From the NCBI GenBank assembly GCA_018267825.1, contig JAFDXR010000003.1, positions 390,952 to 454,951 of the forward strand: DNA of 64,000 nucleotides. The letters run 5' to 3'. The position numbers and the translations under genes were made by a program. Below, piece by piece: positions 18,903 to 26,603 of the stretch. Source of the stretch: Bacteroidota bacterium (GTDB lineage: Bacteria; Bacteroidota; Bacteroidia; B-17B0; Aurantibacillaceae). The notes under the pieces were generated by a model. The model saw nothing but the letters and a program-made list of their open reading frames with translations, did not search any database and was not told where the DNA came from. The first letter of the stretch is position 1; the number at the start of each line of letters is the position of its first letter.

Positions 18903-20351
18903 GTGTTTAAACCATTGTATACCCTGCTTGTATTGTCGGCCACATTTATTTTGCTGGCTGGCATGACCTTTCTGTTTCCGAAGGATGGCTTGCATATCGG
19001 TGGCAGCTTCAAACTCCAGTACCCTCATTACACTTCATTCCTGGAGCCGGAAAAAAATCAAAAAGCCGATATATCAAAAATTATTGCACTGGCCGATGAA
19101 GAAGAAAAAATACTGGACAAGGATACGACTGCTGCCGAAATTGAGGCAGAGCTGAAAGATACAGCGCGCCCGGTCCTCATCACCACCATTCAATATAAAA
19201 ACAATACGCCCGGAGCACTTGAAAACTTTTTTGCATCATTGCAACATATCGCCGACGAACCCAAGAGCATACGTATTCTTCATTATGGCGACTCACAGAT
19301 CGAAGGCGACCGGATCAGCGACTACCTCCGCCTGAAACTCCAGAGTCAGTTTGGTGGCGAAGGTCCCGGACTCATCTCACTCATGCCGGTTGCTCCAAGT
19401 GTGGTCAATAAAATATCCTGGAGCCCGGGCTGGGACCGCTATCCTGTTTTCGCCGGAAAAGACAAGCGTGTAAAACACAGTAACTTCGGAGTCATGGCAC
19501 ATTTTTGCCGCTTCAATAATTACAAAACGCTCAGTGATACATCTTCTTATATCTCTTCCTGGGTGAAAATTGTGACTTCAAAAAACGGCGGAAAAAATGC
19601 GGCCTCATACAAAAAACTGAAATTATTCTACGGAGGCGCGCAGACAAAAACCTATACCGAACTCTATGAAAACGGCTCGCTTACCAAAACAGACAGCCTC
19701 AATGCCGGCGGAGTATTCAATATCAAAGAGTTTGCCCTGAACCAGGGACCCCTTTTACAGGAATTCCGCTTCAAAGGAAAAGACAGCCCTGATTTCTATG
19801 GCCTTTCGCTCGAAAGCGACAAAGGAGTGATGGTTGATAATATGGGGCTTCGTGGGAGTTCCGGCACATTCTTCAACCAGATTAACTTCGCACAGCTGAA
19901 ACAATTCTACGATTACCTCAATGTAAAATTCATCATCCTCCAGTTCGGTGGTAATACATTGCCCTACATCAAAGACAAATCACAGGCCGATAATTTCGGA
20001 AAATACTTAAGTGCCCAGATCGTTACTATCAAAAAACTGGCACCGAATGCGAGCATCCTTGTTATCGGGCCTGCCGACATGAGTGTGAAAGACGGCGCCG
20101 ACTATGTAACACACCCGCAACTCGAAGACCTGCGCGATGCCATCCGTAAAGCAGCCTTTGACAACAACTGTGCTTTTTTCGATATGTATGATTGCATGGG
20201 TGGCCGCAACAGCATGGTAAGCTGGGTTGATCAGAAAATTGCCGCCACAGATTATATTCACTTCAGTCCGGTAGGAGCCCGGAAAATAGCCACCCTTCTC
20301 TACTCGGCCCTGATGAATGATTATGCTACTTACACTAAAACAAAAAAATAA
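18903..20351 (+). CDS. SGNH/GDSL hydrolase-like protein, envelope O-acylation partner
   Basis: A 482-residue protein with a GTG start. Residues 5-24 form an N-terminal membrane anchor, followed by a charged linker (45-95). The SGNH fold has block I LHYGDSQIEGDR with Ser131, a block II glycine (MGLRGSSG), block III FGGN and block V TDYIHFS with Asp450 and His453, so the catalytic set is complete. Next to an MBOAT gene, such proteins (AlgJ/AlgX or PatB type) accept or move acetyl groups onto envelope polysaccharides. The second SGNH gene starts immediately after its stop. Acceptor polymer unknown. Confidence 0.88.
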   Translation: MFKPLYTLLVLSATFILLAGMTFLFPKDGLHIGGSFKLQYPHYTSFLEPEKNQKADISKIIALADEEEKILDKDTTAAEIEAELKDTARPVLITTIQYKNNTPGALENFFASLQHIADEPKSIRILHYGDSQIEGDRISDYLRLKLQSQFGGEGPGLISLMPVAPSVVNKISWSPGWDRYPVFAGKDKRVKHSNFGVMAHFCRFNNYKTLSDTSSYISSWVKIVTSKNGGKNAASYKKLKLFYGGAQTKTYTELYENGSLTKTDSLNAGGVFNIKEFALNQGPLLQEFRFKGKDSPDFYGLSLESDKGVMVDNMGLRGSSGTFFNQINFAQLKQFYDYLNVKFIILQFGGNTLPYIKDKSQADNFGKYLSAQIVTIKKLAPNASILVIGPADMSVKDGADYVTHPQLEDLRDAIRKAAFDNNCAFFDMYDCMGGRNSMVSWVDQKIAATDYIHFSPVGARKIATLLYSALMNDYATYTKTKK

Positions 20352-21605
20352 TTGAACCTGCTATCCTCATATAAAACGACCTGTAACATTCGTCCCCGGC
20401 ACTTTACAATTCTCTGCCTGCTTGTGCTGTGCCTCCTGGTCATCAAAACAAAGGCTCAGTATAATTTCATTCGTTACGATTCAAGCCGCGTCGTATTTGG
20501 CAAAGACAGCTCTGCCTTTATGAAATTATATGGCAAAATGGACGATCTGAAAAACGGCAAACGTGATCGCGTAACCATTGTGCATTACGGAGGCTCCCAT
20601 ATCCAGGCCGGTTTCTGGAGCGAAAAACTCATTGATAATTTTCAGGCACTCGGAAATTTTGAAGGTGGAGGCGTGTGGGCCTTTCCATACAAAATAGCAA
20701 AAACAAACGGTCCTCCGTTTTACCGCTCATTTTCGGATGGCCGCTGGAAACGCTGCCGTTGTGCACTGGCCAAAGAAATGTGCCCGAACCTGGGCATGAA
20801 TGGAATTGCGGCTGTAACAAACGATAGCGCCACAAACTTTGGAGTAAAAATAACTACCAATAACCATCACAAAAATTTCAACACCGTAAAAGTCTACCAC
20901 AATTTCAATGCTTCGTTCGAGATAAGCCTGGGCGAACAGGCCGGACTACCCAGCAAACGGAGCGATGATAAAAGCAAGGGTTATACAGAGTTTACTTTTG
21001 AAAACTATATCGACAGTATTAATTTTCAGCTCATCCGTAAAGATACGCTCCAGCGCGACTTCATGCTTTATGGCATCAGCCTCGAAAACAACAAGCCCGG
21101 ATATTACTATGCCGGATTCGGAGTCAATGGTGCCTCCAGCAGCTCTTTCCTGCGTTGTCCCCTGCTTGTTGATCAGCTCAAAACACTTAAACCCGACCTG
21201 GTTATTTTCTCTCTTGGGGTGAACGATACCCAGGGTAAAGATTTTACAAAAGCGGATTTCATCGCTCACTACGATAGCCTTATTGCTCTCATCAAAAAAG
21301 CTTCACCCGACTGCGCTATACTTTTTACAACCACGAGCGATAATTATATTGCACGCAAAACACCCAACAAGAGACCGATCCGTGCCGAAGAGGCTATGTA
21401 CGACCTGATGCAGAAACACAAAGCAGCTGTATGGGATTTGTATGAAGTGATGGGAGGATATCGTTCTATTTACAAATGGTATAAATCAGGGCTGGCAGCG
21501 AAAGATAAAGTGCACTTCAATTCCCGCGGCTATTATATTGTAGGGCAACTGATGTTTGAAGCGTTGGAACGAAGCTACAGATATAACTCAAAGGTCGGAA
21601 AGTAA
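20352..21605 (+). CDS. Second SGNH hydrolase-like protein with GDS-to-GGS change
   Basis: A 417-residue protein starting at a TTG directly abutting the previous stop. A signal peptide/anchor spans 17-36 and ends near KTKAQ. Block I reads VHYGGSHIQAG: the usual GDS aspartate is Gly81 while the nucleophile Ser82 is kept. Block II is GVNGASSSS, block III LGVNDTQ, and block V DKVHFNSRG with Asp385 and His388. The protein is similar in plan to its upstream neighbour and probably arose by duplication. The pair likely divides work in O-acylation (transfer and esterase, or two acceptors). Three cysteines in the CRCALAKEMC region (around 134-142) might form a disulfide. Confidence 0.86.
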   Translation: MNLLSSYKTTCNIRPRHFTILCLLVLCLLVIKTKAQYNFIRYDSSRVVFGKDSSAFMKLYGKMDDLKNGKRDRVTIVHYGGSHIQAGFWSEKLIDNFQALGNFEGGGVWAFPYKIAKTNGPPFYRSFSDGRWKRCRCALAKEMCPNLGMNGIAAVTNDSATNFGVKITTNNHHKNFNTVKVYHNFNASFEISLGEQAGLPSKRSDDKSKGYTEFTFENYIDSINFQLIRKDTLQRDFMLYGISLENNKPGYYYAGFGVNGASSSSFLRCPLLVDQLKTLKPDLVIFSLGVNDTQGKDFTKADFIAHYDSLIALIKKASPDCAILFTTTSDNYIARKTPNKRPIRAEEAMYDLMQKHKAAVWDLYEVMGGYRSIYKWYKSGLAAKDKVHFNSRGYYIVGQLMFEALERSYRYNSKVGK

Positions 21606-21691
21606 CTGAAGGCTTCTGCAAATGCCCGGCTGACATAAATAAAAGTGCGACAGGAAAAGCTTTGGGTTGGCGTTCGTTCCTGATTTTTTTG

Positions 21692-21719
21692 TTTCTTTTT
21701 TCATCAGGGAAAAAAGAAA
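21692..21719. repeat. Perfect 11-bp hairpin (TTTCTTTTTTC/GAAAAAAGAAA)
   Basis: Arms 21692-21702 and 21709-21719 pair perfectly around the loop ATCAGG. It sits in the 133-base gap between the second SGNH gene and the probable MBOAT start. I recall similar T-run/ATCAGG/A-run elements scattered in Bacteroidota intergenic regions, so it may be one copy of a dispersed repeat. An attenuating role is possible but unsupported. Confidence 0.6.
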
Positions 21720-21738
21720 ACATAATAACATAAAAACT

Positions 21739-23400
21739 TTGAACACCCTTAACTACATAAAAGAACTCTTCTCCTTTTCCGAAGGAAAACCCCTCATTTT
21801 CACCCAGCTTTTCTTCTGGGCTTTCTTCGCAGTGGTCCTGGTTTTTTATGCATTGGTTTACAAAAAAATTGCGTTACGAAACATATACCTGCTCCTGGTG
21901 AGCTTTTTCTTCTATTACAAAACCAGCGGCGTTTTCCTCATCCTTCTGCTCTTCACGATCAGCAGCGACTATTGCTGGGGCCTGCTCATATACAGAGCCC
22001 GATCTATCACACATAAAAAAATATTCCTCACCATCAGTGTTTTATTGAACCTCACCCTTCTTTGTTATTTCAAATACGCTTATTTCTTTACCGAAAGCTG
22101 CAACCAGCTCTTCCATACCAACATTGCATTCTTCAACCATTTCTCGCAATTCAGCAACACCTTTTTCGGCACACATTTCAGCGTCGACAAACTCATACTT
22201 CCTATTGGTATTTCTTTCTTTACGTTTCAGTCTCTGTCATACACCATCGATATGTACCGTGGGAAGGTCACGCCGGTCAAAAACATTTTCGATTATGGCT
22301 TTTTTGTTTGTTTCTTTCCGCACCTCGTAGCAGGTCCCATTGTAAAGGCACATGAGTTTCTTTACCAGGTATATCAACCTTATTCGCTTAGCCGGAAAGA
22401 ATTCGGCCTGGCTGCATTCTGGATCATGAACGGCCTGGGTAAAAAAATCATCGCCGATTATATTGCGGTCAATTTTGTGGATCGGATCTTCGATAATCCC
22501 AATTACTACAGCGGCGTCGAAACCATCCTGGGGATCTTCGGTTACTCCATGCAAATTTATGCCGATTTCTCAGGCTATACCGACATTGCCATTGGCATTG
22601 CGCTCCTGCTGGGCTTCCGGTTACGCACCAATTTCAAATCGCCATACAAGGCCCAAAGTACCAGTGAGTTCTGGAAGCGCTGGCACATTTCCTTATCCTC
22701 CTGGCTCCAGGAATACCTCTACATTCCCTTAGGTGGAAACCGCCAGGGAACACCCGGATCCTATATTGCCATCAGCATCCTGGCCATTGTACTGGTAATG
22801 CTCACCGGGCACCTGTGGCTATTGCTGGTGTTGCTCGGACTCACAGCACTCTTTGTTTTGCTCGCTTATTTTATTCCATCAGTTCGCCGCTCCATCAATA
22901 CCAATATCAACCTCATGGTAACCATGCTCCTTGGCGGGTTGTGGCACGGCAGCAGCTGGCTCTTCATCATCTGGGGTGGGCTCAACGGGCTTGGCCTTGT
23001 TGTGCATAAACTATGGCTGAAAGTATCGCCTTTCAAGAACAGCACAAATATCGCCGTCAAAATTACAGCCATGCTGTTCACCTTAACCTTTATCAGTTTC
23101 ACCCGTATTTTTTTCAGAAGCGATAGCATGGATACCGTTTCTCTGATCTTCGACCGCATCACCAATCACCTGGGGCTTTCACTTACATTCGGTATTATAA
23201 AAGGATATGCTCTCGTACTTTCGGTTATTGCCATCATGTACCTCATTCACTGGATCCCGGAACGCTGGAAGGAAAAATACCGTCTTTTCTTTGCTTCATT
23301 GCCTTTACCCTTGATGATTCCCTGCATGGTCGTTCTTGTTTTTACCCTCTACCAGTTTATCAGCGGCGATATGCAACCGTTTATATACTTCCAGTTCTGA
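21739..23400 (+). CDS. MBOAT family membrane-bound O-acyltransferase
   Basis: A 553-residue integral membrane protein from a TTG at 21739. A longer frame from 21667 would translate through the hairpin into a low-complexity stretch, and the family normally starts close to NYIKELFSFSEGKPLIF. About 11-13 spans are visible. Family hallmarks are the PIGISFFTFQSLSYTIDMYRG block, FPHLVAGPIV, WKRWHISLSSWLQEYLYIPLGGNR and the catalytic histidine in LGGLWHGSSW. AlgI/PatA-type MBOATs move acyl groups across the inner membrane to a periplasmic SGNH partner. With two SGNH genes directly upstream, this is a complete O-acylation cassette. Confidence 0.93.
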   Translation: MNTLNYIKELFSFSEGKPLIFTQLFFWAFFAVVLVFYALVYKKIALRNIYLLLVSFFFYYKTSGVFLILLLFTISSDYCWGLLIYRARSITHKKIFLTISVLLNLTLLCYFKYAYFFTESCNQLFHTNIAFFNHFSQFSNTFFGTHFSVDKLILPIGISFFTFQSLSYTIDMYRGKVTPVKNIFDYGFFVCFFPHLVAGPIVKAHEFLYQVYQPYSLSRKEFGLAAFWIMNGLGKKIIADYIAVNFVDRIFDNPNYYSGVETILGIFGYSMQIYADFSGYTDIAIGIALLLGFRLRTNFKSPYKAQSTSEFWKRWHISLSSWLQEYLYIPLGGNRQGTPGSYIAISILAIVLVMLTGHLWLLLVLLGLTALFVLLAYFIPSVRRSINTNINLMVTMLLGGLWHGSSWLFIIWGGLNGLGLVVHKLWLKVSPFKNSTNIAVKITAMLFTLTFISFTRIFFRSDSMDTVSLIFDRITNHLGLSLTFGIIKGYALVLSVIAIMYLIHWIPERWKEKYRLFFASLPLPLMIPCMVVLVFTLYQFISGDMQPFIYFQF

Positions 23401-23585: not shown

Positions 23586-25313
23586 ATGAAAACTGAACTG
23601 ATTACCAAAGTGGAAGAATTGCTCGGTCAACCCGAAGCAAGTGCTGTTGCTCACCAAATGCGCACTCTGCAAAAAGAGTATCAACAGGTATGGACAGCCG
23701 AATTTGAAAAAGCCAAACAGGAATTTATCGATGAGGGTGGCAAAGCCAAAGAATTTGAATATGCCAAAAGTCCGGAAGACCTGAAAATTACGCAACTGTT
23801 TGATCGCTTCGAGAAAAAGAAAAAAGAAGAAGAATCGCGGCTCGCTGCCGAACAGGGCAAGAATCTCGAAATCCGCAAAGAAATCATTGCCAAAATAAAC
23901 GACCTCAGCCAGGTGAGTGAAAACGTGGGCTCTGCCATCAAAAAACTTATTGAGCTGCAGGCTCAGTGGAAAGCCACCGGCGCGGTGTCTCCGCATAAAT
24001 ACAAAGATATCCAGGGTGAGTATAGCAAAGCCATTGAAGAGTTCAATTACAAACTGAGCATCTCCAAACAGTTGCAGGACCATGACCTGAAACGTAATTT
24101 CGAACTGAAAACCGAGTTGCTCGAAAAACTGAAAGCCGTACAGAACCTCGAAAACATCAAGGAAGCTGAGCGCCTCATAAAAGTATACCGCAACGATTGG
24201 GAAGACATCGGCCCGGTTCCGAACGACAAATGGGATGAACTGAAAGGTGCATATCGTGCGGCGCTTGAAGAAGTATATGGCAAACTCAAAGCACACTATA
24301 ACTCTGTAGAAGAACAGAAAGAACAGAACCTTAATCTGAAAAAGGAACTGCTCGACAAAACAAAAGATATTCTTGCACGCAGTGAAACAGCCGCAGGCGC
24401 TATGTGGAACACACTTACCAATGAACTGCTCGCTATTCAGAACGAATGGAAGAACATTGGCCGTGCAGCACAAAAAGATAACGACAAAGTATGGTCAGAA
24501 TTCAGAAGCCTGTGCGATACATTTTTCGATAAGAAAAAAGCATTCTTTGCCGTGGTGAATGAAAAAATGGGCGAGATCCGCGCTCAGAAAAAGAAACTCA
24601 TTGAAAAAGCCGAGGCAATCAAGAATGATACCGACTGGTCTAAAACAGGTCTGGCATTAATCCGCCTGCAGGACGACTGGAAAAAAATACCGCATGCCGG
24701 TGGCGATGAAAACAGCCTGTTTCAGCGTTTCCGCGCAGCCTGCAACCATTTCTTTGAAGCCAAAAAAGCACACTTCGAAGGTATCGAAGCTTCTTATACA
24801 GATAACCTGAAGGCCAAAGAAGATCTTCTTGAAAAGCTGAACGCCTTTACCCTGGGCGATGATAATAATGCAAACCGTGAACAGCTGAAACAACTCACCG
24901 CCGAGTGGAATGCCGCCGGTATGGTTCCCATGAAGGAAAAGAAACGTGTGAACGATGCATTTTACAACAAACTGGATGAACTGTATGACAAAATGAGCAT
25001 GAGCCATTCCGAAAAAATGATGATGCAGTTCAAAACAAAACTCGAACGTTTTGCTTCCAGCGACAATGCACTCGAGCTGCTTCGCAAGGAAAATGATTTC
25101 CTGAAAAAACACATGGATGAAATCAATAACACCATCCGCACCTATGAAAACAATCTTGGGTTCTTCAAAAACAGCAAAGGCAAAAACGATCTGCTGAAAG
25201 ATGTAGAACAGAAAATTGAAAACGAAAAACAAAAATTACAGGACTTCAACGAAAAAAGAAAAATGGTTTCTTCTGAAATGAACAAACTCAGAGAGCAAAC
25301 ACAGAAAGCTTAA
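23586..25313 (+). CDS. DUF349 five-repeat coiled protein
   Basis: A 575-residue soluble, highly charged helical protein with no signal peptide. Five DUF349 units are visible, each with a conserved tryptophan at 128, 205, 288, 365 and 441 in contexts such as QWKATG, DWEDIGPVP, EWKNIG, DWKKIP and EWNAAG; spacing is close to 77 residues. A C-terminal coiled coil (490-575) ends the protein. The function of DUF349 proteins is not established. A TATTTTTG element at 23509-23516 could be its -7 box, 69 bases before the ATG, without a good -33. A strong terminator follows the stop. Confidence 0.92.
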   Translation: MKTELITKVEELLGQPEASAVAHQMRTLQKEYQQVWTAEFEKAKQEFIDEGGKAKEFEYAKSPEDLKITQLFDRFEKKKKEEESRLAAEQGKNLEIRKEIIAKINDLSQVSENVGSAIKKLIELQAQWKATGAVSPHKYKDIQGEYSKAIEEFNYKLSISKQLQDHDLKRNFELKTELLEKLKAVQNLENIKEAERLIKVYRNDWEDIGPVPNDKWDELKGAYRAALEEVYGKLKAHYNSVEEQKEQNLNLKKELLDKTKDILARSETAAGAMWNTLTNELLAIQNEWKNIGRAAQKDNDKVWSEFRSLCDTFFDKKKAFFAVVNEKMGEIRAQKKKLIEKAEAIKNDTDWSKTGLALIRLQDDWKKIPHAGGDENSLFQRFRAACNHFFEAKKAHFEGIEASYTDNLKAKEDLLEKLNAFTLGDDNNANREQLKQLTAEWNAAGMVPMKEKKRVNDAFYNKLDELYDKMSMSHSEKMMMQFKTKLERFASSDNALELLRKENDFLKKHMDEINNTIRTYENNLGFFKNSKGKNDLLKDVEQKIENEKQKLQDFNEKRKMVSSEMNKLREQTQKA

Positions 25314-25331: not shown

Positions 25332-25361
25332 GAGCCCGGATCTCTTGATCCGGGCTCTTTT
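25332..25361 (+). terminator. Rho-independent terminator of the DUF349 gene
   Basis: An 11-base-pair GC-rich stem, GAGCCCGGATC with GATCCGGGCTC, around a TCTT loop, followed by TTTTA. It starts 18 bases after the stop codon. Confidence 0.9.
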
Positions 25362-25384
25362 ATATCCGGTATCTTTACCTTTAT

Positions 25385-25705
25385 GCCAGTGTTGGTGTTC
25401 TCACCAACACTAATCCGCACATCATCACACCCCCTTAATCCAACACATATTCCAAAAAACTGTTATGCCGATGTTGGTGTTCTCACCAACATAAATCCGA
25501 ACATCACTACAATCCTTATGCCGGTGTTGGTGTTCTCACCAACACCCATCTGAACTTCATCGCAACCCTTATCTCAACGCATATTCCAAAAACTGTTTTA
25601 TGCCGGTGTTGATGTTCTCATTTATGCCGGTGTTGGTGTTCTCACCAACACCCATCTGAACTTCATCACAACCCTTATCTCAACGCATATTCCAAAAAAC
25701 TGTTA
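25385..25705. repeat. Five-copy palindrome array (GTGTTGGTG-TTCT-CACCAACAC)
   Basis: Four intact palindromes at 25389-25410, 25471-25492, 25523-25546 and 25629-25652, plus a broken copy at 25605-25620. Each intact copy is a 9-10 base-pair stem with an invariant TTCT loop, usually preceded by ATGCC. Copy 2 has ATGTTGGTG paired with CACCAACAT, so both ends of the first pair changed and pairing is kept. Spacers after copies 1, 3 and 5 share a longer sequence containing CAACGCATATTCCAAAAA or a variant; copy 2 has a short spacer. Spacing is about 82, 53, 82 and 24 bases. It fills most of the 450-base gap between the DUF349 gene and the next gene, which has no ORF. Confidence 0.92.
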
Positions 25706-25763: not shown

Positions 25764-26603
25764 ATGAAAACCTTAAGTATCCTCACCGCAGCCATCTGTC
25801 TCATTACGGCTTCGATCCATGCGCAAACCGTGGTTTATGGAGGCAACCCAAACCATCATCCCAAAGACAACGGCTATAACCAGCCTAACACGCAGAACAA
25901 CGATCATCCATCCAAAAAAATGGGATATGGCAATAATGGCTGGTACAACAACGGCCCGGGCTGGGGAGGCAATGTCAATATATCTTTCGGCAACAACCCC
26001 TCTTACGGCTATCCGCAATATGGCTACAACAATTATTATGGTAATGGTTATTACAGCATGAGAAAAGCAGCGCGCTATGCCATCAATAAAAGTGGTGCCA
26101 TGCTCAACAATGCCACCTGGTACGAGAGCTGGGACAATATGTATTCGCCTATGCTTGCCAAAGCCATAAGGCATCAGCAATATGCTCGACAATTATATTA
26201 CTGGGGCGATTACGCAGGTGCCTACAATCATGCTGAACGCGCAGCCTACCTGGCCGGTTACGTCATATCGTTTTACAATAATCCCGGCGCATATAATAAT
26301 GGCCCTTATAACGGCGGCCCTGTAAACAACTACCCGAATCCTTACAGCGATCCATACAACCCATACTACAAACAAAGCAACCCGGATGCTACCAACGATC
26401 CGGCTTATCAACCCGGCGATGATGCTGGATTCAAAAAACAAAAAGAAACAACAGAGCCCTCCGGCCAGGATACAAACAAACCTGCAGAGCTTAGCATAAA
26501 ACGTACAGGAAACAGTGAGCTCGATTCCAGATTACCGGCATCGACCCAGGATGATAAAACCCTTTTGAAATCTATCAAAACAAACGAGCTCCTGGTTGAA
26601 TAA
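25764..26603 (+). CDS. Asn/Gly/Tyr-rich secreted protein, function unknown
   Basis: A 279-residue exported protein with signal peptide 1-20 (ends IHAQ). Two low-complexity regions (about 25-98 and 172-205), rich in Asn, Gly, Tyr, Pro and His, flank a helical block (98-170). The helical block includes RKAARYAINKSG, LAKAIRHQQYARQLYYWGDY and AYNHAERAAYLAGYVI, which looks like paired TPR-like helices. The tail (205-279) is charged and probably disordered. I recognise no family. It stands alone between the palindrome array and its own terminator. Confidence 0.82.
   Translation: MKTLSILTAAICLITASIHAQTVVYGGNPNHHPKDNGYNQPNTQNNDHPSKKMGYGNNGWYNNGPGWGGNVNISFGNNPSYGYPQYGYNNYYGNGYYSMRKAARYAINKSGAMLNNATWYESWDNMYSPMLAKAIRHQQYARQLYYWGDYAGAYNHAERAAYLAGYVISFYNNPGAYNNGPYNGGPVNNYPNPYSDPYNPYYKQSNPDATNDPAYQPGDDAGFKKQKETTEPSGQDTNKPAELSIKRTGNSELDSRLPASTQDDKTLLKSIKTNELLVE

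Follow-up and report, generated by a model that had tools for sequence, protein, structure and literature searches.

The window analysed here, a stretch of 64 kb (positions 390952-454951 of contig C27) from a 4.82-Mb Bacteroidota assembly (G000), holds between two of its genes a run of short palindromes, which raises two questions: what these repeats are, and how they came to be lined up in tandem. Little is understood of the way in which REPs spread, and evidence that RAYTs process them comes mainly from in vitro work on GTAG systems. As argued below, the run is a genuine array of REPs that belong to a RAYT-associated lineage and whose recognition features differ from those of canonical REPs. 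We consider it highly likely that it is a REP cluster of a Bacteroidota lineage mobilised by its own RAYT (a Y1 HuH enzyme), new units being joined 3' of a TT and direct arrays building up as a result.

A tandem array of hairpins

The array consists of five head-to-tail units on the plus strand, starting at 25381, 25463, 25516, 25598 and 25622 (82, 53, 82, 24 and 82 nt), and its true period is set by the TTATGCC tag that opens each of them. In unit 1 (25381..25462) the tag leads into a 10-bp hairpin (25388-25411) and a 3' spacer; unit 2 (25463..25515) has a 9-bp hairpin (25471-25492) and a shorter spacer; units 3 (25516..25597) and 5 (25622..25703) again carry 10-bp hairpins (25523-25546 and 25629-25652) followed by spacers, the two copies being 99% identical across 77 nt. 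Unit 4 (25598..25621) is broken: its tag is followed by a left arm with GTTGATG and the loop TTCT (palindrome 25605-25620), and the unit is cut after CTCA. The preliminary description had reported four intact palindromes with a TTCT loop, a broken copy, partly repeated spacers and repeated tandem growth, and all of this holds: the intact palindromes measure 24, 22, 24 and 24 nt with stems of 9-10 bp, the units tile head to tail, and the core TGGTGTTCTCACCA has five matches in the window at up to two mismatches, against 0.49 expected from shuffles. Folded as single-stranded DNA, the intact copies reach -9.0 to -11.4 kcal/mol (z -6.5 to -7.1) and the broken one a z of -0.3. The compensatory A-T for G-C that had been noted in copy 2 is correct for the ninth stem pair (G-C in copies 1, 3 and 5), and a second exchange is found at the tenth (A-T in copy 1, G-C in copies 3 and 5).

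Upstream of the array lies a gene for a 575-aa DUF349 protein (23586..25313, plus strand), with a terminator-like hairpin of its own at 25332..25357 (plus strand) that is separate from the array; downstream lies a gene for a 279-aa protein without Pfam match (25764..26603, plus strand). The array hairpins themselves were considered as terminators and rejected, the sole terminator-like site being that of the upstream gene; no T-run follows them, they have no match in Rfam, and a plasmid search gave no match. Such hairpins were absent downstream of DUF349 genes in 13 other Bacteroidota MAGs, which are too distant to count as empty sites. Elsewhere in the window, positions 18903-23400 encode two SGNH-hydrolase-like proteins and then an MBOAT-like acyltransferase, by inspection probably a polysaccharide acetylation operon.

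A dispersed family and its RAYT

Reading the array as a REP or BIME-like element, as the preliminary description did, depends on further copies in the genome. These exist: the exact stem GTTGGTG-N4-CACCAAC occurs 44 times in G000 and the reversed-pattern control not at all, and relaxed matching yields 52 copies in 27 clusters. The TTCT loop is private to the window array within G000, the loop elsewhere being nearly always TTAT. With one copy taken per cluster, the conserved part reads T(T/C)N(Y)GCC followed by the stem, and information drops to background level immediately before the TT. The foot tag is GCC/NSCC in 26 clusters of G000 and in 42 RAYT-flanking hairpins; the GT[AG]G tetranucleotide that defines canonical GTAG REPs is not found 5' of the hairpin foot. 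Most copies (47 of 52) are located outside ORFs of 100 aa or more; of the remaining five, four fall within an ORF created by the array on contig C6 itself. The family occurs in mixed gene contexts and in mixed orientations. As a short multicopy palindrome that is mainly intergenic and whose hairpin is kept by compensatory change, the family is a REP in the broad sense. The REP half of the early reading therefore stands, also in view of the RAYT described below, whereas the BIME half does not: neighbouring copies of the main type within 400 bp share the same orientation in 23 of 23 pairs.

Inverted pairs are found elsewhere in G000 with a second hairpin type (stem GCAGGTG, 12 exact copies), and also in the relatives G004 and G012. 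At C6:8431-9047 and C4:58-242 (loci L131 and L184), GTTGGTG is followed by a reversed GCAGGTG some 70-90 nt away with the tags pointing outward, a REPIN-like arrangement that matches the two ends of the RAYT gene. On contigs C11, C20, C21, C22, C30, C31 and C32 (L129, L170, L172, L175, L179, L180), a dispersed repeat of more than 100 nt, AAGTAAAAACATGTATCC..., has extra GGCTCC/GGAGCC hairpins and a GTTGGTG REP on the 5' edge of every copy read, bearing in mind that the copies were located via the REP and that REP-less ones would be missed. Contigs C1, C4, C18, C22 and C24 of G004 have an inverted GTTGGTG pair no more than 40 nt from their start, which suggests that this pair sits inside a longer repeat that broke the assembly.

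No RAYT gene lies in the 64-kb window, as the preliminary description had stated, and a Pfam Y1_Tnp search of G000 recovered none. In the relatives G004 and G026, Y1 genes are flanked on both sides by the same palindromes, and the G004 RAYT used as a query identified an intact homologue in G000 (C27:378447-378953, 57% identity). This gene (C27:378429-378965, encoding 178 aa) is on the same contig, 12.5 kb upstream of the window, with one GCAGGTG/CACCTGC hairpin on its 5' side and two GTTGGTG hairpins on its 3' side, the second of them past a duplicated copy of the last part of the gene. The catalytic residues H57 and H59 (HuH) and Y133 are intact in G000 and invariant across the alignment. The protein matches the NCBIfam model for REP-associated tyrosine transposases (REP_Tyr_transpos, NF047646) at E 4.8e-20, its scores falling below the cut-offs (71.9 against 80 bits for NCBIfam, 17.3 against 23 for Pfam), and a profile built from 28 sequences of the clade and its sister genes matches the structure of E. 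coli TnpA-REP (4ER8) at E 1.3e-8. A RAYT flanked by its own hairpin within the same genome, as in a REPtron, is present in G000, G004, G026, G020 and most clade members. The transposase that the preliminary description proposed to look for is thus found, and the repeat family has very probably been spread by this REP-type enzyme just outside the window. Rearranged 3' ends of RAYT genes were also seen: the RAYT 3' end and its REP are duplicated in tandem in G000 (L166:3468-3641), and in the distant genome G362 the gene has a second fragment of a RAYT 3' end next to it (C24:1149-1403).

Profile searches of 395 genomes of the phylum identified 12 further genomes with close members of this RAYT. 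In the RAYT tree the clade has a support of 99/95 and a long branch. The HuH-Tyr spacing is 74 in 15 of its 16 members and 72 in one; in sister genes it is mostly 79-83, with 75-76 in four. Perfect hairpins with a 4-nt loop lie within 400 bp of 12 of the 16 members, where about 0.02 would be expected, and nine of these have them on both sides; such hairpins are also near 5 of 31 other Y1 genes; L189, L190 and L198 are without one, L198 having hairpins with a 3-nt loop, and L168 is cut by a contig end. The flanking hairpins point outward from the gene in 34 of 42 cases and have a C at the second base before the stem in 39. Mapping any 4-nt-loop hairpin on the tree gives nine label changes, a noisy picture in which some sister genes also carry hairpins. 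Sister RAYTs of the subclass 2.6 type (L124, L125, L148, L149; G012, G021, G010) have a different flanking hairpin with a 3-nt loop, like CCGCAGGATT-TGT-AATCCTGCGG.

The stems vary by genome (GTTGGTG, GTCGGTG, GTCTGTG, GTGAGTG, GGCGGTG, GCAGGTG). When stems from 12 genomes are aligned, 98.4% of cells are paired, a percentage biased upward by the preselection of hairpins with perfect stems of at least 8 bp, which leaves the sequence changes unbiased; double changes occur at 7 of 10 pairs. Shuffled stems are 70.8% paired and never reached the observed covariation score. The covariation first proposed from the array is therefore strong within as well as between genomes. Counting from the foot, the fourth pair (G-C) is invariant, and so is the GT at the eighth and ninth pairs, which lie two and three pairs away from the loop; on sequence conservation, these are candidate recognition sites. 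The stems GTGAGTG and GGTCTGTG were seen solely in genomes with a RAYT that carries them and in relatives of the same genus.

Sharp 5' ends, joints and array growth

Among pairs of copies at different loci of G000, 73 share only the 3' flank and 6 only the 5' flank, and in the 73 pairs identity falls from 1.0 at the TT to about 0.4 or less immediately before it. This polarity and the drop at the TT mean that the repeated unit has one base-sharp end, on the hairpin side, identity between copies ending at the TT seven bases before the stem. The same polarity is seen in G020 (nine pairs sharing only the 3' flank, none only the 5'), where joints are too few for a comparison of TT; the upstream TT is clear in G000 and weak in other or distant families. 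At 18 joints for which a sister sequence is available, taken as uninserted although it could be derived, TT is exactly at the joint in 13 and a T in three more; composition predicts TT at about 8%, and 13 of 18 corresponds to about 5e-11 (binomial count by hand). Three joints are located inside other REPs. Beyond the insertion, a further TT marks the return to native sequence, and the spacer is duplicated. Within the array, the joint between units 1 and 2, CTG-TTA, falls at a TTA that is also present in the uninserted sister sequence and that in unit 5 continues as TTAACAAC; the unit 3/unit 2 joint, read directly, is a TTAT carried within the spacers of units 3 and 5. The TT joints, together with the TT at which sequence resumes past the inserted unit, fit a process in which TT is cut on either side of the hairpin and the unit is joined 3' of a TT. 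Such TT cutting would be much like that of GTAG enzymes, whose cuts on either side are at CT (PMC8266576); under the guide rule of GTAG RAYTs (PMC8266576), TT is not obviously predicted from the GCC foot.

We infer that the RAYT itself does the cutting and joining. The REP element of this lineage is NYGCC, a perfect stem of 9-10 bp and a 4-nt loop that begins with T; the enzyme would recognise the hairpin and its NYGCC foot on single-stranded DNA, cutting at a TT at fixed distance 5' of the hairpin and at variable TTs on its 3' side. The unit cut out would be joined 3' of a TT, often next to a copy already present or within it, and repeated rounds would lead to arrays whose units all point the same way and have constant 5' ends, with spacers that vary and now and then a broken copy.

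Arrays may also grow without the enzyme, some of them by slippage or recombination between copies, and the RAYT could merely have founded the family, the present array then having grown by slippage or unequal recombination of neighbouring copies. The near-identity of units 3 and 5 invites this explanation, as does the local homogeneity of arrays at each locus (one array in G020, for instance, has four copies with a TTTT loop), and REP-REP recombination would also keep 3' spacers together with their REPs. We nevertheless regard it as rather unlikely, a possibility to be kept in second place, because 3' flanks common to different loci and a base-sharp 5' end need more than local recombination, and joints at TT, three of them inside other REPs, also speak against it. 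It is improbable that the hairpins are RNA elements (mRNA stabilisers, a small RNA or attenuators) selected as transcript structures: strong covariation and a position between a terminator and the next gene would suit such a role, but the hairpins lack an Rfam match and a following T-run, their copies are mixed in gene context and orientation, and stem changes go along with the RAYT lineage, as would not be expected of a host RNA role. Sites for an unrelated DNA-binding protein, or integron or phage attachment sites, could likewise appear as palindromes in multiple intergenic copies; this idea is hardly credible given that RAYT genes in many genomes are flanked by hairpins with matched stems.

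Mobilisation by the RAYT is therefore the reading that we prefer. The chances seem to us evenly balanced that it also defines a distinct RAYT lineage, with a GCC-type foot tag, cutting at TT rather than CT, and a hairpin-led unit with a fixed end and a variable 3' passenger; REPs would then grow into direct arrays and bring adjacent DNA, the RAYT gene's 3' end included, to new sites. Joints with a readable uninserted sister sequence allow base-level predictions of tag, hairpin, fixed distance to the TT and polarity. The REP/RAYT concept now also covers a Bacteroidota clade whose recognition features differ, which should be useful for studying the co-evolution of enzyme and hairpin.

Relation to known systems

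The system has much in common with E. coli REP/BIME elements and TnpA-REP (RAYT group 2, 4ER8): a Y1 HuH enzyme, inverted short hairpins flanking its gene, intergenic multicopy dispersal, a foot tag and tandem clusters. It differs in that the tag is NYGCC/CC and not GTAG, the stems are perfect with no bulge, the arrays in G000 are direct and the joint is at TT, whereas the E. coli enzyme cuts at CT. TnpA-Y1 subclass 2.6 (RAYT group 5; PMC6006769) is also of Bacteroidota and shares the NH[LIV]H and YIH[QN]NP motifs, a C-terminal SS and atypical flanking hairpins without GT[AG]G; its median HuH-Tyr spacing is 82 (PMC6006769), against 74 here, and the present enzymes form a separate clade (99/95, long branch) with perfect 10-bp hairpins and 4-nt loops, those of sister genes having mostly 3-nt loops. 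This clade may either belong to the group 5 enzymes reported in 2018 or be their sister group. In IS200/IS605 elements (IS608, ISDra2), a foot-tagged hairpin, a fixed 5' cleavage distance and insertion 3' of a short T-rich target resemble what we propose here, but most of our units have no paired right-end hairpin, the elements are not autonomous, and most copies are gene-free. Finally, the inverted REP pairs with outward tags on C4 and C6, built from two hairpin types, and those of G004 and G012 resemble the REPINs of Pseudomonas (PMC3116915), whereas the window array has no inverted partner and consists of direct units.
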